Source: Rosettibacter firmus (lineage in GTDB: Bacteria; Bacteroidota; Ignavibacteria; Ignavibacteriales; Melioribacteraceae). Taken from it: 64,000 nt of DNA. Under the pieces are notes generated by a model, which had not been told where the DNA came from, did not search any database, and saw only the letters and a program-made list of their open reading frames with translations. A program made the translations under genes and the position numbers. Positions within the stretch are counted from its first letter, which is position 1, and each line of letters begins with the position of its first letter. The stretch is from NCBI RefSeq assembly GCF_036860695.1, contig NZ_JAYKGJ010000005.1, positions 1-64,000 on the forward strand, given 5' to 3'. This document shows, piece after piece, positions 30,202 to 39,055 of this stretch.

Positions 30202-30669
30202 GTGATAATTAATGTGAAAAATATTCTAATTAATAAATTGAATAAAATTGTGAATAATGTTTTAATGATAATATTCGCATTCTTTTTTCTTAATTGTAAT
30301 GTAAGTTATTCTCAGGATATAAAAATTAATGATGTAAGCAAGATATTTATTCATTTCGAAGATGGTTTGAATAACAATGCTATCGATAAATTTTCATCTT
30401 ATTTTGCTGAGAAAAGTTTTATTAGTCTAAAAAATGGGAACTCGGGTTATTACAGTGCAAATCAATCTTACTATGTTATTAAAGATTTTTTGAGCATTTA
30501 TAAACCAATTTCATTTAAATTAACTAACATTGTTACAGATTCCACTAATCCATTTGCATCAGGAGTTCTAAAATTTAATAATAATGGAATTAAAGGCACA
30601 GCAATTGTCTTTATATCGTTGCAATTAATCAGGAATCAATGGAAAATATCTCAAATTACTATTAATTAA
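30202..30669 (+). CDS. Small exported protein, DUF4783-like
   Basis: 155 residues from a GTG at 30202; a GTG at 30214 and an ATG at 30265 are alternatives, none with a good ribosome site. The hydrophobic start ends in 'NVSYSQ', a signal peptide. The mature part ('IFIHFEDGLNNNAIDKFSSYFAEKSFISL', 'YYSANQSYYVIKDFLSIYKP', 'GTAIVFISLQLIRNQWKISQI') fits the DUF4783/NTF2-like pattern found upstream of signalling genes in Bacteroidota. It lies 12 bases before the large kinase gene. Function unknown; a small lipid- or ligand-binding fold is likely. Confidence 0.65.
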   Translation: MIINVKNILINKLNKIVNNVLMIIFAFFFLNCNVSYSQDIKINDVSKIFIHFEDGLNNNAIDKFSSYFAEKSFISLKNGNSGYYSANQSYYVIKDFLSIYKPISFKLTNIVTDSTNPFASGVLKFNNNGIKGTAIVFISLQLIRNQWKISQITIN

Positions 30670-30681
30670 GTTCCTATTAGC

Positions 30682-33600
30682 GTGATTATCATTAGTTCAA
30701 AAACAAAGAAAATTATTTTCTATTTATGTATTGTTCTCCTGGTGTTATCAGGATTTTTATCTCCTGTAGTTGTGAATTATTGTAGAAATAATTGGAAATC
30801 ATTAATAGATTCACAAATTGAGAGTGATGAAAAAGCAATTAAAGAAAATTTCAAAAAGAAGATAAAGTTCTTATTTAGTGAATCGAGAAATATTAAAAAT
30901 GATGTTCGGAGAAAGATTAACAAACTTCCTTTTGAACAATTATCTGAAATATTAAAAAACTATAAAACTTTAATTCAGATTTATGATAATCAAAAAAATA
31001 TAATTTATTGGGATTCAAGGAATTATCTTAATCAAGAAATATATTTAAACCAGAATAATCTCAACAGGATATTTTTTTTCGATGATGATTTAAATGTTTA
31101 TTTAACCACTATTGATACAATTACAACTCCAAATATTTTTTATGTTTCTGTTAATTTACCTATCGAAAAAAAATACAAATTAAGTAACAAAGATAAATTC
31201 GTAAGCTGGTCTGAGTTTCTTTCTAAATCTTTGAATACGAGTGTTGAAGTAAATTACACTTATGCTAAATTAATTAGAAATGGTAAATTTCATTCAACAG
31301 AGTTGATTAATAATAAAAGTGAAGTAATAGGAGAAGTTTTATTTGAAAAACCTTCTGTAGATTTCTTATTGAGCGATGTAATAAAAGTGATAAGAACCTT
31401 ACAGTTATTTTTATTTTTACTGATATTTCTATACTTGATTAATCTCGTTATCTCATTCGTAAGAAAATCGCAGAAAAATTATGTTAAGTTTATTTGCTAT
31501 TCTCTTATTGTTCTATCATTAAGAATTCTTTTATTCATTTTTAATTTTCCTTCATCATATATAAGAAACTCATTAACAGATGCATCAAACTTCTCATCGA
31601 AATTTGCATTTGGAATTGTAAAATCTCCGCTTGAATTCACTCTAACAATTATTACTTTATTCATAATAATTTCTACTGGATTTAAATATTTTATCAAATG
31701 GTATAATGAAGGGAAAACTCGAAATAATAATTGGGTAATCTTTATAGGTCTCATTCTTATTAATTACTTTTTAATTTTGTTGCTATGGCGGGGAATGGGG
31801 GCATCAATACGAAGTGTAATTTTTGATTCAACAATTCGTTATTTCAAAGAATTTAAATTAATTCCAGAAGCACCTGCTCTACTTATGGATTTCAACATTC
31901 TGATGTTTGGAATCTCGTTATTAATTTTTTCGATAATGTTACTGCTTGTTTTGTTTTATTATATTCCAGTAAAAAACAATAAGAACAAATTTTTCAAAGC
32001 ATTGATAATTTTATTTTTCTGTTTGCAAATATTCGGTTTAGTATTTGATACATTACAAAAAAATCCACAAGGCACGCCAATAATTAGAGTAATATTTTTA
32101 AGTACTATTTTTTTATTAGCTTATGTTTTTAATAAGGAAAATTTCAAAAGCATCACTAAATATGTTTATATATCATTCGGGGCATCAATTGTAACAGTAA
32201 GTCTTTTAACTTATTATAATTCTGAAATTGAAAGAGAATCTCTTAAAACAACTGCATATGATTTAACTCGTGCTAATCAAAATATTTATCAGTTTATAGT
32301 TTACCAGACATTATACGATATTCAAAATAATAATAGTTTGAAAGATGCTTTTCTCGATAACAAAAATTTTTATTCCAGTGCATTTTTAGTCTGGTCAAAA
32401 AGTATGCTTTACAAAGAATCAATTCCATCTGCAATAGCTTTTTACAATGCTGAGAAAAAACAAGTAGGAACATTTTCTTCTTCAATAATAGATTTTGGAA
32501 TTAACGAGAATTTAGAAGAGATAGATGTTAATGAAGATGATATTGTTATAAAAATAATTCCAAATATTTACGGAGATGATTTTTTAATCAAAGGAATAGT
32601 AGCAATTAAAAATAATAATAAAATTCTGGGCTATGCATTGATTTATGCTCTATATGAAGAAATTAATTTTAGATTTTTAAATGTTCCAAAATATTTTTTG
32701 GCTGAACAACAGGGAATATCATCTGCTATAGATTATGAAAGAGTAAAGATATTTTATTTCAATGATAAAGAATTAGTAAAATCATATGGAGCTTTATCAC
32801 TTTCTAAAAACGATATTAAAACATTTATAAATGCATCTTTTAATAATACTAATGAAGCATGGTTAAATATTTCATTGAGCGATGAGAAATTTCTTTTTTA
32901 TATTCTAAAATTAAATGATGATTCTTCTAAAATATTAGCAGTTGGTAAAGCCGAAAAAAGTTTTACATGGAATCTTTCGGATTTCTTCAAAGTCTTTTTT
33001 GTTCACTCGATCATAATTTTATTTACACTTATTCTAATTTCATTATGGAATTATAAAGAGTTGCTGAAGTTTTTACAAAGTTATCGAACAAAAATTGCAG
33101 TTGCTTTTTTATTTATAGCAATAATACCACTGATAATATTTGCTTTGTACATAAAAAATATTACTGAAGAAAATGCAAGAGAATTTAGAATAGAAGAATT
33201 ATCAAAATATACTGAACAACTTAAAAATTATCTTAGTGTTTATGAAAATAGTACTATAAAAGATAGTAACTTAATTTTCTTAAAAGCATCGAAAGATCTG
33301 GGAATTGAGTTTTCTGTATTTGATAACAAGTATCTTAATTTTAGCACAGAACAAAATTTATATAAGGCAAATTTATTACCAGTAATTGTTCCTTTTAATG
33401 TTTATAACAATCTTATTTTGAAGGGATATGATAAAGCATATTTTATTAATGAACTTGAAAACAATCCTTATACTTCAGTTTATTTTAAAATTATTTTTAA
33501 TGGGAAAAATTATTTAATTGAAGTTAATGATCTTTTAAACAAAATAAGAGTCTCAGTTACAGATAAGGATGTTAATGTATTCATGTTTGGTATAATTTCT

Positions 33601-34470
33601 CTTGCTGTTATTTTAATAATAATAGTTAGTACTTTACTGGCAAATCAAATTTATTTACCTGTAAAAAAACTTACACATGCAACTCGTTCAGTTGGAAGTG
33701 GTGATTTAACAGTAGAAATTAAAGGGAATTATACTGGAGAAATACTGGAGCTTACGGAAGGTTTTAATAAAATGGTTGAGCAGTTAAGGAAAAGTCAATT
33801 TGAAATGGTTAAGCTTGAAAGAGAAGCAGCATGGAGAGAAATGGCAAAACAGGTTGCTCACGAAATTAAAAATCCTTTAACACCGATGAAATTATCTGTA
33901 CAACAATTAATAATAGCTTATAAAGATAAATCTCCTAAGTTTGGAGAAATATTTGATAAAGTTACTGCTACAATAATTAATCAAATTGAAGTATTAAAAA
34001 ATATAGCAACTGAATTTTCTAATTTTGCAAGAATGCCTAAGTTAAATGTTAATAAAGTTAATCTTGGTAAAATTATAAATGAAACTATAAACTTATTTAC
34101 AGATGAAAAGTTGTCTATAAAATTAATTTCAGAAAAAGAATTTGTAGTTAATGCAGACGAAGAACATTTGAATAGAACATTTATTAATCTCATTCGTAAT
34201 TCGATTCAGGCAGAAGCAAAAAATATTTTGATAATAGTTAAAGAAGAACAAAATTATTGTGCTGTAAGAATTTCAGATGATGGTACTGGAATTCCTGAAG
34301 AATTTATAGAAAAAGTATTTGAAGAAAATTTTACTACAAAAAAACATGGAATGGGTCTGGGTTTAAGTATGACAAAGAAATTTCTTAACAGTATTGGTGG
34401 CACAATAGAAATTGAAAATACATCAGAAAAAGGGACAACATTTTTAATTAAAATTCCATTGGCAGAATAA
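30682..34470 (+). CDS. Large NtrY-like membrane sensor histidine kinase
   Basis: 1262 residues from a GTG. The N-terminal half has an extracytoplasmic domain after the first helix, a bundle of about eight membrane helices (~230-490), a second extracytoplasmic region (~505-760), and two further helices around a third sensor loop (~810-960). Then HAMP ('LPVKKLTHATRSVGSGDLTVEI'), HisKA with H1060 in 'VAHEIKNPLTPMKLS', and HATPase_c ('LIRNSIQAEAKNI', 'DDGTGIPEEF', 'HGMGLGLSM'). The 'EIKNPLTPMKLS' H-box is the NtrY/AtoS type, whose partners are usually sigma-54 regulators; none lies nearby. It overlaps the next gene by one base (TAATG), so it is part of a run with the helicase-nuclease and amidase genes. 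Confidence 0.9.
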   Translation: MIIISSKTKKIIFYLCIVLLVLSGFLSPVVVNYCRNNWKSLIDSQIESDEKAIKENFKKKIKFLFSESRNIKNDVRRKINKLPFEQLSEILKNYKTLIQIYDNQKNIIYWDSRNYLNQEIYLNQNNLNRIFFFDDDLNVYLTTIDTITTPNIFYVSVNLPIEKKYKLSNKDKFVSWSEFLSKSLNTSVEVNYTYAKLIRNGKFHSTELINNKSEVIGEVLFEKPSVDFLLSDVIKVIRTLQLFLFLLIFLYLINLVISFVRKSQKNYVKFICYSLIVLSLRILLFIFNFPSSYIRNSLTDASNFSSKFAFGIVKSPLEFTLTIITLFIIISTGFKYFIKWYNEGKTRNNNWVIFIGLILINYFLILLLWRGMGASIRSVIFDSTIRYFKEFKLIPEAPALLMDFNILMFGISLLIFSIMLLLVLFYYIPVKNNKNKFFKALIILFFCLQIFGLVFDTLQKNPQGTPIIRVIFLSTIFLLAYVFNKENFKSITKYVYISFGASIVTVSLLTYYNSEIERESLKTTAYDLTRANQNIYQFIVYQTLYDIQNNNSLKDAFLDNKNFYSSAFLVWSKSMLYKESIPSAIAFYNAEKKQVGTFSSSIIDFGINENLEEIDVNEDDIVIKIIPNIYGDDFLIKGIVAIKNNNKILGYALIYALYEEINFRFLNVPKYFLAEQQGISSAIDYERVKIFYFNDKELVKSYGALSLSKNDIKTFINASFNNTNEAWLNISLSDEKFLFYILKLNDDSSKILAVGKAEKSFTWNLSDFFKVFFVHSIIILFTLILISLWNYKELLKFLQSYRTKIAVAFLFIAIIPLIIFALYIKNITEENAREFRIEELSKYTEQLKNYLSVYENSTIKDSNLIFLKASKDLGIEFSVFDNKYLNFSTEQNLYKANLLPVIVPFNVYNNLILKGYDKAYFINELENNPYTSVYFKIIFNGKNYLIEVNDLLNKIRVSVTDKDVNVFMFGIISLAVILIIIVSTLLANQIYLPVKKLTHATRSVGSGDLTVEIKGNYTGEILELTEGFNKMVEQLRKSQFEMVKLEREAAWREMAKQVAHEIKNPLTPMKLSVQQLIIAYKDKSPKFGEIFDKVTATIINQIEVLKNIATEFSNFARMPKLNVNKVNLGKIINETINLFTDEKLSIKLISEKEFVVNADEEHLNRTFINLIRNSIQAEAKNILIIVKEEQNYCAVRISDDGTGIPEEFIEKVFEENFTTKKHGMGLGLSMTKKFLNSIGGTIEIENTSEKGTTFLIKIPLAE

Positions 34471-37400
34471 TGCTTACTCAGTATCAAAAAGAAGCTCTCG
34501 ATTTTAATACACATATTTTATTATCTGCAAATGCTGGCTCTGGCAAGACATTTGTCCTTGCTAAAAGATTTGTAAATATTTTACTGAATGAAAATGTTGA
34601 ATTAGAAAATCTTGTAGCAATAACTTTTACAGATAAAGCTGCTGGTGAATTAAACAAAAGAATTGCTCTTGAGATTGAAGAACGACTTTTAAATGAAACT
34701 GATGCCAACCTAAAAAGAAGATTAGAAAACATAAGAAGACAGCTTGTATTTGCCAATATCTCCACAATCCATTCTTTTTGTGTGAATGTTCTAAGAGAAT
34801 TTGCTCCTGAAGCTGGAATTGATGCCAATTTTAATCCTGTTGATCAATTAACCGCAGATGAAATATTAGATCAATCCATAAATGAATCGATGAATAAACT
34901 CATTATTGATACTGCTTATGAAAAAAAATTAAAGTATCTGATACGATTTTTTGGCTCTCGTAGAATTCTGGAACGACATATTAAAAATGCTATTGGGTCA
35001 AGAAAAATTATTGAGCAAAATCTTAAAGAGATTTATTCTAAATCAGAACAGGAAATTGCTGAGTATTTTAAAAACCGTTTTGATGATTTGTTTAATTCTT
35101 TGTATAACGAAAGGATTAATAATGTTATAAAAATTATTCAAGTCATAAATAATTTTGTTCTTGATAATAACAAGAATAGCCAAACTGCCATTTCAATATT
35201 AGAGATATTGAAGGATTATTCAGATTCTCTTCCACTTAATCAAAAAATGAATATTATAAAATCGTTGGATAAAATATTATTAACTAATAATGATAGAACT
35301 GTTAGGACTCAAGGATATCTTAGGAAAAATAGAGAGTACTTCATTGATGAAATTAAAATTGTTGAAGAATTTTTTTCTGAGATTAAATATTTCTATGAAC
35401 TCGATAAAATAGATGAGTTGCATTTAGAATTAGCTCACTTTGGAAAATGGTTTCTGGATGTTTATGATTATATCCTTAATGTTTATACTGAAAAAAAACA
35501 CCAGAGAAGTTATGTCGATTTTGAAGATATTCTATTATTGACACAAAAAATTTTAGAACTTGATGAAGTTAAGGAATATTTAAGGGCGAAGTACAAATAC
35601 ATTATGATTGATGAATATCAGGATACAAATGAACTGCAATACAAAATCTTTATGCCAATTCTGGATTATTTGAAACAGGGAAATCTTTTTGTTGTAGGTG
35701 ACGAAAAGCAAAGTATATATATGTTTAGAGATGCTGAACTTGAAATATTTAATAAAACAAAAGTTGATATTAAAGAAAGCGTGCCAGAAGGGAAATTACT
35801 GAATCTTCCCCATAGTTTTAGAATGGCTCCACAAATAGTTCTTTTTACAAATACACTTTTTTCAAAATTATTTTCTAATCCTTCCACAATCTATAATGAT
35901 GTTGAATATAGTGAATTAATATGTACTAAAAATGAAAGTGAAGAAGGAGCTGTTGAAATATTATTTGCTGACGAAAATGGAATTTCTGAAGCCGAAATGG
36001 TTACTAATAAAATAATTGAAATTACATCGGGAGAAAATAAAAAAGTAGATTTAAGTGATATTGGAATATTGTGTAGAAAGAGAGATTTTTTTGAAGAACT
36101 TGAAAAAGAGTTTGTTAAAAAGAAAATTCCTTATATAATAATTGGTGGCAAAGGATTCTATCAAAATCAAATTGTTTATGATGTTTATAATTATATCACT
36201 TTCCTGCTTAACTTAAATGACGATGCTGCATTAATAGGAATATTACGATCTCCTTTCTATACAATTTCTGATAGAGAACTTTTTGCTATCTCACTTGAAA
36301 ATGGAAATTCTTTTTTTGATAAATTAATTCAAAAGTCTAATGAAGAAGAGAAATACAAAAAAATAGTAGATACATTATTAAAACATCAAAAGTTAACAAT
36401 AAGTACAGAACCATATTTCTTAATTAGACAAATTCTACTTGATACAAATTACTGGTCTATTATAGCAGCAAAAAGAAATTCAGAACAGGATGTTGCAAAT
36501 CTTGAAAAGTTAATATCACTTGCAAGAGATTATTCAAGAAAGAGTTTCAAAAATCTTTATGATTTTGTGATTGCATTGAAAAATTCGATTAAAACTATTG
36601 AAGATGAAAGTCAAGCTCAAATTTTTAAAGATAAAGATGCAGTTAAATTATTGACAATTCATCAAGCAAAAGGTCTCGAATTCAAAGTAGTATTTTTATA
36701 TGGATGTAATAATTATGCAAAGGAAGATACGGTTAAAACTAAAAGCTTGAATGTAGATAAAAATTTTGGTTTGCTTGTAAAAGTCCCACTAAATAAAAAT
36801 ATCTTTGGTGGATTTCATACACCACCAATAGTTTCGCTTTACAATCATATTAATTATAAAAAGAATATAGCAGAAATTAAGAGACTTCTATATGTTGCTG
36901 TTACAAGAGCTAAAAATTATCTTTATATAAGTTTATCGCACAAAAATTTTAAACCACAGCGAGATTCCTTTTTCTATTTCATCGATGAAGCTTTAAAACC
37001 AGATTACACAGTTGACTCAATTGATTTGCAAGGGAAAATCAAATATATGAAGCAGGAGAGTGATAACTATATTTTTTATGATAAAGACTATCATTTGGAA
37101 ATTCCATTAATTAAAGAAGTAAAATCTGTTGAAATAAATAATCAAAAGGATGATGAAATTGAAGAGCCAAAAGAATTAATTATTGAAAAAATATCTGATA
37201 GACCAAAAGGTGAAATCTTTTCTGCAACCAAAATATCAATTTTTAATCAATGTCCCTGGAAGTATGAACTTATTTATGAACTTGGCTATACAACTATTTA
37301 TGATATAATAAAGAAGTATTACAATGTTTATGAATTTAATTTTAAGGAAGAAGAAGAATTACAATATCATTCCGATGTGAAAGGTAGAGTAATTCATTCG

Positions 37401-38000
37401 GTATTAAAAGAAAATCCCGAAATTGAAAATCTTGAAGAGTTAATAGAAAGATATTTAAAAGAAGAATCGATTAATGATGAAAATGCGGTTAGTTTATTAA
37501 AACAAAAAATCTATAGCGAGCTCGAAAGATTTTGTTCATCAGAACTTTATAAAAATTTATTGCAGACTAAATCGAAAAACGAAATAGAAATATATTGTAA
37601 AGAAGGAGAACACTACTTATTTGGTATTATCGATAAATTAATTTTTGAAAATGACAAAATCATTATTGTTGATTATAAAACTGATAATATCAATGATAAC
37701 CAGATAGAAGAAAGAGCAAATGAATATTTTATACAATTACAATTCTATGCTTATATTTTAAGTAAGTATTATAAAGAGTATAATTCGTTCTTAACAAGAA
37801 TTATCTTTACAAAATATCCAGCTAATGTTATCGAAAAAGAAATTACAAGAAACGAATTAAGTTCTTTTAGCAAAGAATTGAATGATATTATAAGTAAAAT
37901 TATTAATAATGAATTTAATCACAACTTAAATCATTGTAGCAAATGCAATTTTGCTTTAGATGGAGGCAAATGCGTAAAACAAATAGCTCGGAATTATTAA
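34470..38000 (+). CDS. addA: AddA-like UvrD-family helicase with C-terminal PD-(D/E)XK nuclease
   Basis: 1176 residues. The SF1A helicase has Walker A 'NAGSGKTFVLAKR', motif Ia 'AITFTDKAAGELNKR', Walker B/Q region 'IMIDEYQDTNELQ', 'VVGDEKQSIYMFR', 'LLTIHQAKGLEFKVVFLYG' and 'RLLYVAVTRAKNYLYI'. The C-terminal nuclease shows 'GRVIHSVLKE', 'FGIIDKLI' and 'IIIVDYKTDN'. C928 ('NQCPW') with C1156, C1159 and C1168 ('HCSKCNFALDGGKC') frames the nuclease in the way the Fe-S cluster does in AddB and Cas4/Dna2 nucleases. No addB gene is adjacent. Expected role: processing of double-strand DNA ends for recombination. It starts with a 1-base overlap after the kinase gene. Confidence 0.85.
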   Translation: MLTQYQKEALDFNTHILLSANAGSGKTFVLAKRFVNILLNENVELENLVAITFTDKAAGELNKRIALEIEERLLNETDANLKRRLENIRRQLVFANISTIHSFCVNVLREFAPEAGIDANFNPVDQLTADEILDQSINESMNKLIIDTAYEKKLKYLIRFFGSRRILERHIKNAIGSRKIIEQNLKEIYSKSEQEIAEYFKNRFDDLFNSLYNERINNVIKIIQVINNFVLDNNKNSQTAISILEILKDYSDSLPLNQKMNIIKSLDKILLTNNDRTVRTQGYLRKNREYFIDEIKIVEEFFSEIKYFYELDKIDELHLELAHFGKWFLDVYDYILNVYTEKKHQRSYVDFEDILLLTQKILELDEVKEYLRAKYKYIMIDEYQDTNELQYKIFMPILDYLKQGNLFVVGDEKQSIYMFRDAELEIFNKTKVDIKESVPEGKLLNLPHSFRMAPQIVLFTNTLFSKLFSNPSTIYNDVEYSELICTKNESEEGAVEILFADENGISEAEMVTNKIIEITSGENKKVDLSDIGILCRKRDFFEELEKEFVKKKIPYIIIGGKGFYQNQIVYDVYNYITFLLNLNDDAALIGILRSPFYTISDRELFAISLENGNSFFDKLIQKSNEEEKYKKIVDTLLKHQKLTISTEPYFLIRQILLDTNYWSIIAAKRNSEQDVANLEKLISLARDYSRKSFKNLYDFVIALKNSIKTIEDESQAQIFKDKDAVKLLTIHQAKGLEFKVVFLYGCNNYAKEDTVKTKSLNVDKNFGLLVKVPLNKNIFGGFHTPPIVSLYNHINYKKNIAEIKRLLYVAVTRAKNYLYISLSHKNFKPQRDSFFYFIDEALKPDYTVDSIDLQGKIKYMKQESDNYIFYDKDYHLEIPLIKEVKSVEINNQKDDEIEEPKELIIEKISDRPKGEIFSATKISIFNQCPWKYELIYELGYTTIYDIIKKYYNVYEFNFKEEEELQYHSDVKGRVIHSVLKENPEIENLEELIERYLKEESINDENAVSLLKQKIYSELERFCSSELYKNLLQTKSKNEIEIYCKEGEHYLFGIIDKLIFENDKIIIVDYKTDNINDNQIEERANEYFIQLQFYAYILSKYYKEYNSFLTRIIFTKYPANVIEKEITRNELSSFSKELNDIISKIINNEFNHNLNHCSKCNFALDGGKCVKQIARNY

Positions 38001-39055
38001 TAATACATTTAATAACATTTGTTATTACTGTTTTTGTAATAAGCTCGTGTACTATCTGTAATTTCCCGCTTTATGAATATCCACCGAACTGGAAAGATAT
38101 TTCTAAAAGAGATAGTGTAATAAATTTGTATTCAAAGTATTTAAAAGGGAAAAAAATATTTTTAGATCCTGGACACGGTGGCGAAGATAGAAAAAATAGA
38201 AGCAAGAATGGTGAAATAATTGAAGCAGATGTAAATTTAAAAGTGGCATTATATTTAAGAGAATATCTTGAAAAAGCTGGTGTAACAGTATTTATGTCTC
38301 GAGAAGAAGATAAAACTGTACCACTCTTACTAAGATCTGAATTAGCAAATAATTCTAATGCAGATTTATTTATAAGTATTCATCATAATGCACCTGCGAA
38401 ATGGGAAGATGATTATACAAATTATACTTCTACTTATTATCACGCTAAAGAAGATGATTATGAATATGAACCATCTGAAAGAGATATTGCTCGATATATT
38501 CAACGAGATCTTTCTTATGTGATGGGTAATCCTGGTGGATTGGGTTCTTTTGATGGAACTTATTCTGATTACGACATTTATCCTGGAGAAGGATTTTCTG
38601 TTTTAAGAAGAACAAAAATTCCTGCTGTACTTGTTGAATGTGCATTTCATACAAGTAGACTCGAAATACTTAGATTGAATGATGAAACATTTAATCAGAT
38701 TCAAGCCTGGGGTATTTTTTGTGGTATTGCTAAATATTATAGAGCAGGAATTCCTGTAATAGAAATAATAAATGATAGTTTGAAATATGAGAATAATTAT
38801 TTAAAGATATGTTTTCAGTTGAAAGATTCTTACGGTATAAATCAAAAAGCTATAAAAGTATATTTTGATAAGAATGAAATAAGTTATTCATTTGATAAGC
38901 AAACAAATATTGTTTCTACTAAAATAGAAATTTCAGATGATGGAGAGCATCTTATTAGAGTTATATGTGCCAATAAAAATGGAAACCATTCATTGCCTTA
39001 TCATAAAAAGATTGTAATAAACAAAAATGAAATAAAAATTTTTGATGCAGAATAA
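37970..39055 (+). CDS. N-acetylmuramoyl-L-alanine amidase (Amidase_3), lipoprotein
   Basis: 361 residues from the ATG at 37970, three bases after GGAGG (rather tight), overlapping the helicase gene by 31 bases; an in-frame ATG at 37943 would leave no proper signal peptide. The signal ends with lipobox 'VISSC'. The Amidase_3 domain has zinc ligands H69 ('LDPGHGGEDR'), the Glu of 'GEIIEADVN' and the His of 'SIHHNA', and the catalytic Glu in 'AVLVECAFHT'. It cuts the bond between muramic acid and the stem peptide, often at cell separation. The C-terminal ~80 residues are an Ig-like module ('DDGEHLIRVICANKNG'). Confidence 0.9.
   Translation: MRKTNSSELLIIHLITFVITVFVISSCTICNFPLYEYPPNWKDISKRDSVINLYSKYLKGKKIFLDPGHGGEDRKNRSKNGEIIEADVNLKVALYLREYLEKAGVTVFMSREEDKTVPLLLRSELANNSNADLFISIHHNAPAKWEDDYTNYTSTYYHAKEDDYEYEPSERDIARYIQRDLSYVMGNPGGLGSFDGTYSDYDIYPGEGFSVLRRTKIPAVLVECAFHTSRLEILRLNDETFNQIQAWGIFCGIAKYYRAGIPVIEIINDSLKYENNYLKICFQLKDSYGINQKAIKVYFDKNEISYSFDKQTNIVSTKIEISDDGEHLIRVICANKNGNHSLPYHKKIVINKNEIKIFDAE

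Follow-up and report, generated by a model that had tools for sequence, protein, structure and literature searches.

Does a helicase–nuclease that is encoded with no addB beside it work as a single chain, or with a distant partner? A gene of Rosettibacter firmus raises this question. It lies in the 64,000-nucleotide stretch of contig NZ_JAYKGJ010000005.1 that we analyzed (the window), and its product joins a UvrD-type helicase to a PD-(D/E)XK nuclease with four cysteines. Nucleases of the iron-staple kind are defined, with AddB as the first example, in an excerpt of PMC7430649, and a passage of PMC4176176 describes the cluster as required for end binding. The literature that we covered presents the AddAB cluster as a feature of AddB, and in the open literature we found no description of four cysteines in AddA, which is weak evidence of novelty as key subscription papers lay outside that search. 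The protein is most probably the AddA of AddAB, a two-subunit bacterial enzyme that resects broken DNA ends for repair; its AddB is encoded far away, and both subunits carry a Cys4 iron-staple nuclease, giving a "double-staple" AddAB. Trees place the protein with AddA, a four-cysteine AddB is encoded elsewhere in the genome and the two proteins co-occur across genomes.

Domain architecture and genomic context

The addA-like gene occupies positions 34470 to 38000 of the forward strand and encodes 1176 amino acids. Its helicase part (34479 to 36941) extends from a UvrD-helicase domain beginning at residue 4 to a UvrD_C domain ending at residue 824, and the PDDEXK_1 nuclease domain (37218 to 37952) lies C-terminal to it, with all three Pfam matches above cut-off (residues 4-213, 448-824 and 917-1161, respectively). 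The Walker A (ANAGSGKT) and DE.QD motifs are unchanged across 27 orthologues, as expected of a UvrD-type SF1 helicase, and the nuclease residues H976, D1055, D1068, K1070, Q1089 and Y1093 are all found, leaving the PD-(D/E)XK motifs intact. Scores were 353 bits against TIGR02785 (addA_Gpos), half of the curated cut-off of 707.65, and 335 bits against TIGR02784 (addA_alphas; curated cut-off, 860.75); both models are lineage-specific, so the protein was not assigned to either.

As had been predicted, addB is not among the immediate neighbors of the gene. These are, by names read from their translations, a histidine-kinase-like (also sensor-kinase-like) open reading frame upstream on the same strand (30682 to 34470), whose stop codon overlaps the addA start (TAATG), and an amidase-like reading frame (37943-39055). 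A kinase homologue adjoins addA in 36 of 40 loci from the order, within which the gene order of small reading frame, histidine kinase, addA and amidase (30202-39055) is kept. A related-locus search with the single AddA protein as query gave no match.

Four conserved cysteines in the nuclease domain

The translation bears out the positions of the four cysteines, C928 (in NQCPW; codon at 37251 to 37253), C1156 (37935 to 37937), C1159 (37944 to 37946) and C1168 (37971 to 37973), all on the forward strand, the last three spaced as C1156-x2-C1159-x8-C1168 (NHCSKCNFALDGGKC). RecB-type motifs together with one cysteine on the N side and three on the C side, spanning the domain, are the sequence signature of an iron staple, and the protein shows all of these. 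Among 52 full-length AddAs from the order, C928 and C1156 are each kept in 50, C1159 in 49 and C1168 in 48, upholding the proposal of an AddB/Cas4-type frame; the sole other cysteine that is equally constant is C104 (52/52), while C485, C535 and C746 are found in 39, 36 and 22, respectively.

Across a broader set of 133 AddAs the cysteines follow an all-or-none pattern, with all four present in 76, none in 50 and a partial set in 7 compared to approximately 16 with all and 4 with none expected if they were independent, a contrast inflated by related sequences. This set was assembled by hand from the 52 AddAs of the order, 40 chosen rows from the class or phylum and the 41 of 80 named loci that were judged AddA-like; the 39 omitted loci were UvrD/PcrA-like or short, and include two (L121 and L159) that do have an adjoining AddB-like frame. 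One row (L104) is a probable duplicate of another (L020), without which the all-four count becomes 75 of 132. The four cysteines of AddA are conserved beyond chance.

In a tree built from the helicase part only, the cysteine label required 5 changes versus 33 in shuffles, indicating that the trait changed a few times (104 rows remained after L104 and close relatives from the order had been removed from the 133, and the 7 partial rows were left uncounted). Much of the class has the trait, as do family f24 and Thermoflavimicrobium dichotomicum (L106). Three AddAs (L195, L049 and L050) are without the cysteines, though placed among four-cysteine holders. Nearly all cysteine-free AddAs retain the H-D-D-K-Q-Y residues. 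The original prediction that the cluster belongs to AddB and not to AddA agrees with the sampled Lactobacillales, Staphylococcus and Bacillaceae, whose AddAs have none of the four cysteines, but fails for family f24 and the relatives of Thermoflavimicrobium, where AddA has all four.

Two loci of the order have irregular genes. In one (L038:4386-7877, from genome G006), C928 and C1156 are kept and the last two cysteines are missing from a truncated, frameshift-like C-terminus; in the other (L042, from G009), AddA is split into two reading frames of 855 and 298 amino acids, perhaps by a frameshift or sequencing error.

Predicted fold of the nuclease and nature of the metal

An AlphaFold2 model of residues 894-1176, built from ten sequences, reached a pLDDT of 81 and a pTM of 0.80, with low pLDDT (approximately 58-60) in the segments containing the three C-terminal cysteines. 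The top Foldseek match was AddA (4ceh_A), and structural alignment with VIA-align gave Z scores of 18.4 for AdnA, 15.6 for the Cas4-family protein ACE1, 14.9 for AddB, 13.7 for AddA (rmsd 11.2) and 13.4 for RecB. Alignments to AddB, Cas4, Dna2 and EXO5, which we take to be nucleases known for the cluster, extend to model residues 278-283, the cysteine end (279-283 for the best matches AdnA, ACE1 and AddB). Those to AddA 4ceh and RecB chain B end at residues 230-246, and with MGME1 included the range is 230-259. Although RecC is no iron-staple nuclease, its alignment also runs to residue 283 (Z score of 8), so the end of the aligned range proves nothing by itself. As modeled, the predicted fold matches the iron-staple nucleases AdnA, Cas4-family and AddB through the C-terminal end.

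The cysteine ahead of the nuclease core and the three beyond it would, in both subunits, hold the domain closed around a metal cluster, which is most likely 4Fe-4S. Zinc in its place, giving a staple that is purely structural and has no redox chemistry while the AddAB is ordinary in other respects, is improbable: a DUF3799 protein (3L0A) combines this frame of four cysteines with zinc according to an excerpt of PMC3466216 and also matches our model (Z score of 13.7), but the same source describes that zinc as a possible artefact, and AddB, Cas4 and Bad, with the same frame, bind Fe-S in the parts of PMC3466216, PMC4176176 and PMC7430649 that treat them.

A distant AddB partner

Searching the whole genome with PDDEXK_1 identified two proteins, AddA and a 1042-amino-acid protein on another contig, outside the window (G000:C1:1036483-1039608). 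The latter matches ADDB_N at 42 bits (cut-off, 26.6) and PDDEXK_1 above cut-off and carries C749, C1027, C1030 and C1036, as expected of an AddB with the four-cysteine frame. The proposed genome search thus located an addB, and the distant partner that the original prediction had allowed for exists with four cysteines of its own. When the AddB family profile was compared to solved structures in the PDB, AddB of Bacillus subtilis was by far the best match (1.6e-58).

The two subunits have closely matching distributions. AddB was found in 57 of 58 genomes (R. firmus included) and is absent only from G040; the AddA search gave a match in all 58, the best one in G040 being only UvrD-like. That genome (98% complete), without an AddA or AddB match, contains only helicases of the UvrD-like kind and a single match to PDDEXK_1, in a frame of 393 amino acids. 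Another genome (G038) encodes two copies of AddA as well as two of AddB. Among 119 genomes from the class, 69 have both proteins, 8 AddA only, 5 AddB only and 37 neither (Fisher P = 1.3e-17, a value that ignores the relatedness of the genomes). Of the eight AddA-only genomes, one (G120) has an ADDB_N match and in six (G103, G090, G106, G125, G131 and G137) a further PDDEXK_1 protein is encoded by a reading frame of roughly 900-1050 amino acids; in the last, G128 (540 contigs, 96% complete), neither an ADDB_N match nor a second PDDEXK_1 protein was found. The AddA of G128 (L215, on G128:C488) is a four-cysteine one.

The C-x2-C-x5-C tail occurs in 20 of 20 AddBs retrieved from the class, two of them (L232 and L238) identified by eye from the C-terminus as the motif script gave no match. 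When 50 AddBs were aligned (16 of the 31 from the order and 34 others), all four cysteines fell in aligned columns in 33; in others, such as those of L106, f24 and L109, three align and one is at a shifted place, and most or all are missing from the AddB of some lactobacilli, streptococci and alphaproteobacteria. Judged by sequence, AddB nearly always carries the putative cluster frame, and AddA only in some lineages.

Relatives show the two genes in proximity, as counted by eye for three families of the class: the distance between addA and addB is 0.8 kb in f18 (5/5 genomes), approximately 6 kb in f10 (6/11 genomes) and 9 kb in f14 (2/2 genomes with AddA), in each case with both on the same strand. 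In f24, addB adjoins a four-cysteine addA at all four loci. Among Thermoflavimicrobium relatives, 27 of 30 rows (L106 included) have the four cysteines, with a C-x2-C-x5-C tail, and the catalytic H, D and K (the excluded rows are a partial sequence, L268, one with an incomplete C-terminus, L272, and a plain UvrD, L273), and 25 of these 27 (L106 and 24 others) adjoin an AddB reading frame. We considered a rule that ties the staple to gene separation, as the two operon-type AddAs of the order (L049 and L050) would suggest, and rejected it, since four-cysteine AddAs lie beside addB in both f24 and the Thermoflavimicrobium group.

Within the order, addB adjoins addA in only 2 of 40 loci with flanking sequence (L049, on G050:C19, and L050, on G038:C37), where AddA lacks all four cysteines. 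Both are among the 4 of 40 loci without the kinase context, and G038 also has an ordinary unlinked pair. In the respective trees, the AddAs of L049 and L050 form a pair and so do their AddBs; the AddB pairing is weak, as it joins long branches and one of the two sequences is a fragment. The two loci look like a separate addB-addA cassette.

These patterns bear on whether AddA works alone as a single-chain helicase–nuclease like Dna2, Bad or the UvrD-Cas4 fusions, with the distant AddB doing something else, an option that the original prediction had raised and that we consider very unlikely. Neither the lack of an adjacent addB in 38 of 40 loci, nor the precedent of Bad as a monomeric Fe-S helicase–nuclease (in an excerpt of PMC7430649), nor the four-cysteine AddA of G128 with AddB not detected outweighs the tight co-occurrence, with both proteins missing from G040 and two of each in G038, the proximity of the genes in f10, f14, f18, f24 and Thermoflavimicrobium relatives and the cysteine tail retained in every class AddB retrieved. 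We rejected the solo enzyme on co-occurrence and proximity; a missing adjacent addB is not evidence for one. In the two-subunit AddAB that we favor, the SF1 helicase of AddA would drive unwinding from a double-strand break, with one strand trimmed by the AddA nuclease and the other by the AddB nuclease, and the complex may be subject to Chi-type control.

Placement of the protein among AddA nucleases

We built a tree from 122 nuclease domains, 84 of AddA and 38 of AddB, after removing near-duplicates and partial rows. The split between AddA and AddB takes 2 changes in this tree and the protein groups with AddA, not AddB, although resolution is poor (stars on 26 of the 119 inner branches). The exception is the four-cysteine AddA of L106, placed weakly beside AddB; four-cysteine AddAs are otherwise intermixed with cysteine-free AddAs. 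The helicase tree, which holds AddA rows only, also places the protein among AddAs. The separate phylogenies that had been suggested give the same answer for both parts, and the suggestion that an Fe-S-type nuclease sets this protein apart from AddA is not supported. Two observations named beforehand as counting against the original prediction, an addB elsewhere with its own Fe-S-type nuclease and clustering with AddA, were both made, and the third, cysteines that are not conserved in orthologues, was not. Among PDB sequences, the best match to the profile of the AddA nuclease domain was AddA 3u44_A (1.5e-6), and phmmer with the domain alone matched no chain.

Also very unlikely is a nuclease domain transplanted from AddB or Cas4 onto an AddA helicase, which would account for the shared cysteine frame and a weak Cas4 profile match (30 bits against a cut-off of 65) but goes against the separation of AddA and AddB domains, the intermixing of four-cysteine and cysteine-free AddAs and the best PDB match, and we found a transplant from AddB unsupported by the nuclease tree.

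Comparison with known systems

AddA of Bacillus subtilis is not known to carry the cluster. Four cysteines in AddA and separated genes are features of the present system, which is otherwise like AddAB of B. subtilis in having an AddA helicase–nuclease and an AddB with a four-cysteine staple (excerpts of PMC3466216 and PMC7430649). Mycobacterial AdnAB provides the best structural match through the AdnA nuclease, and AdnA is equated with AddB in a passage of PMC4824097; one survey, excerpted from PMC6452273, records AdnAB from Actinobacteria only. Unlike AdnAB, the partner here matches ADDB_N, and the AddA side is also stapled.

The UvrD-Cas4 fusions likewise combine a UvrD-type helicase and a Cas4-like nuclease in one chain, and part of PMC5704561 describes them as defense components that adjoin restriction or Dcm genes. 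By that description and context they differ from the present addA, which has a kinase and an amidase as neighbors, is retained throughout the order and goes with AddB. Bad and Dna2 are also single chains with a helicase and an iron-staple nuclease, but their helicase is of the SF1B 5'-3' type and C-terminal to the nuclease (passages of PMC7430649), whereas here a UvrD-type helicase precedes a C-terminal nuclease and there is a partner subunit.

AddAs with the cluster, without the cluster and with the cluster but without catalysis form a natural set, within a conserved repair machine, that separates the role of the cluster from that of the nuclease. The last kind is represented by all four AddAs sampled from family f6 (L185-L188, from G060, G070, G079 and G097), in which R replaces H976 and Q or H replaces D1068 while the four cysteines are kept. 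Cysteines that outlast the catalytic residues hint at a role beyond cutting. More tentatively, an AddAB with staples in both subunits might be a distinct type of enzyme whose AddA cluster does something other than cutting: it might bind DNA ends, or act as a switch, structural or redox, between the nucleases. The partner AddBs of f6 keep the D-x-K motif as ADYK in four of four cases.
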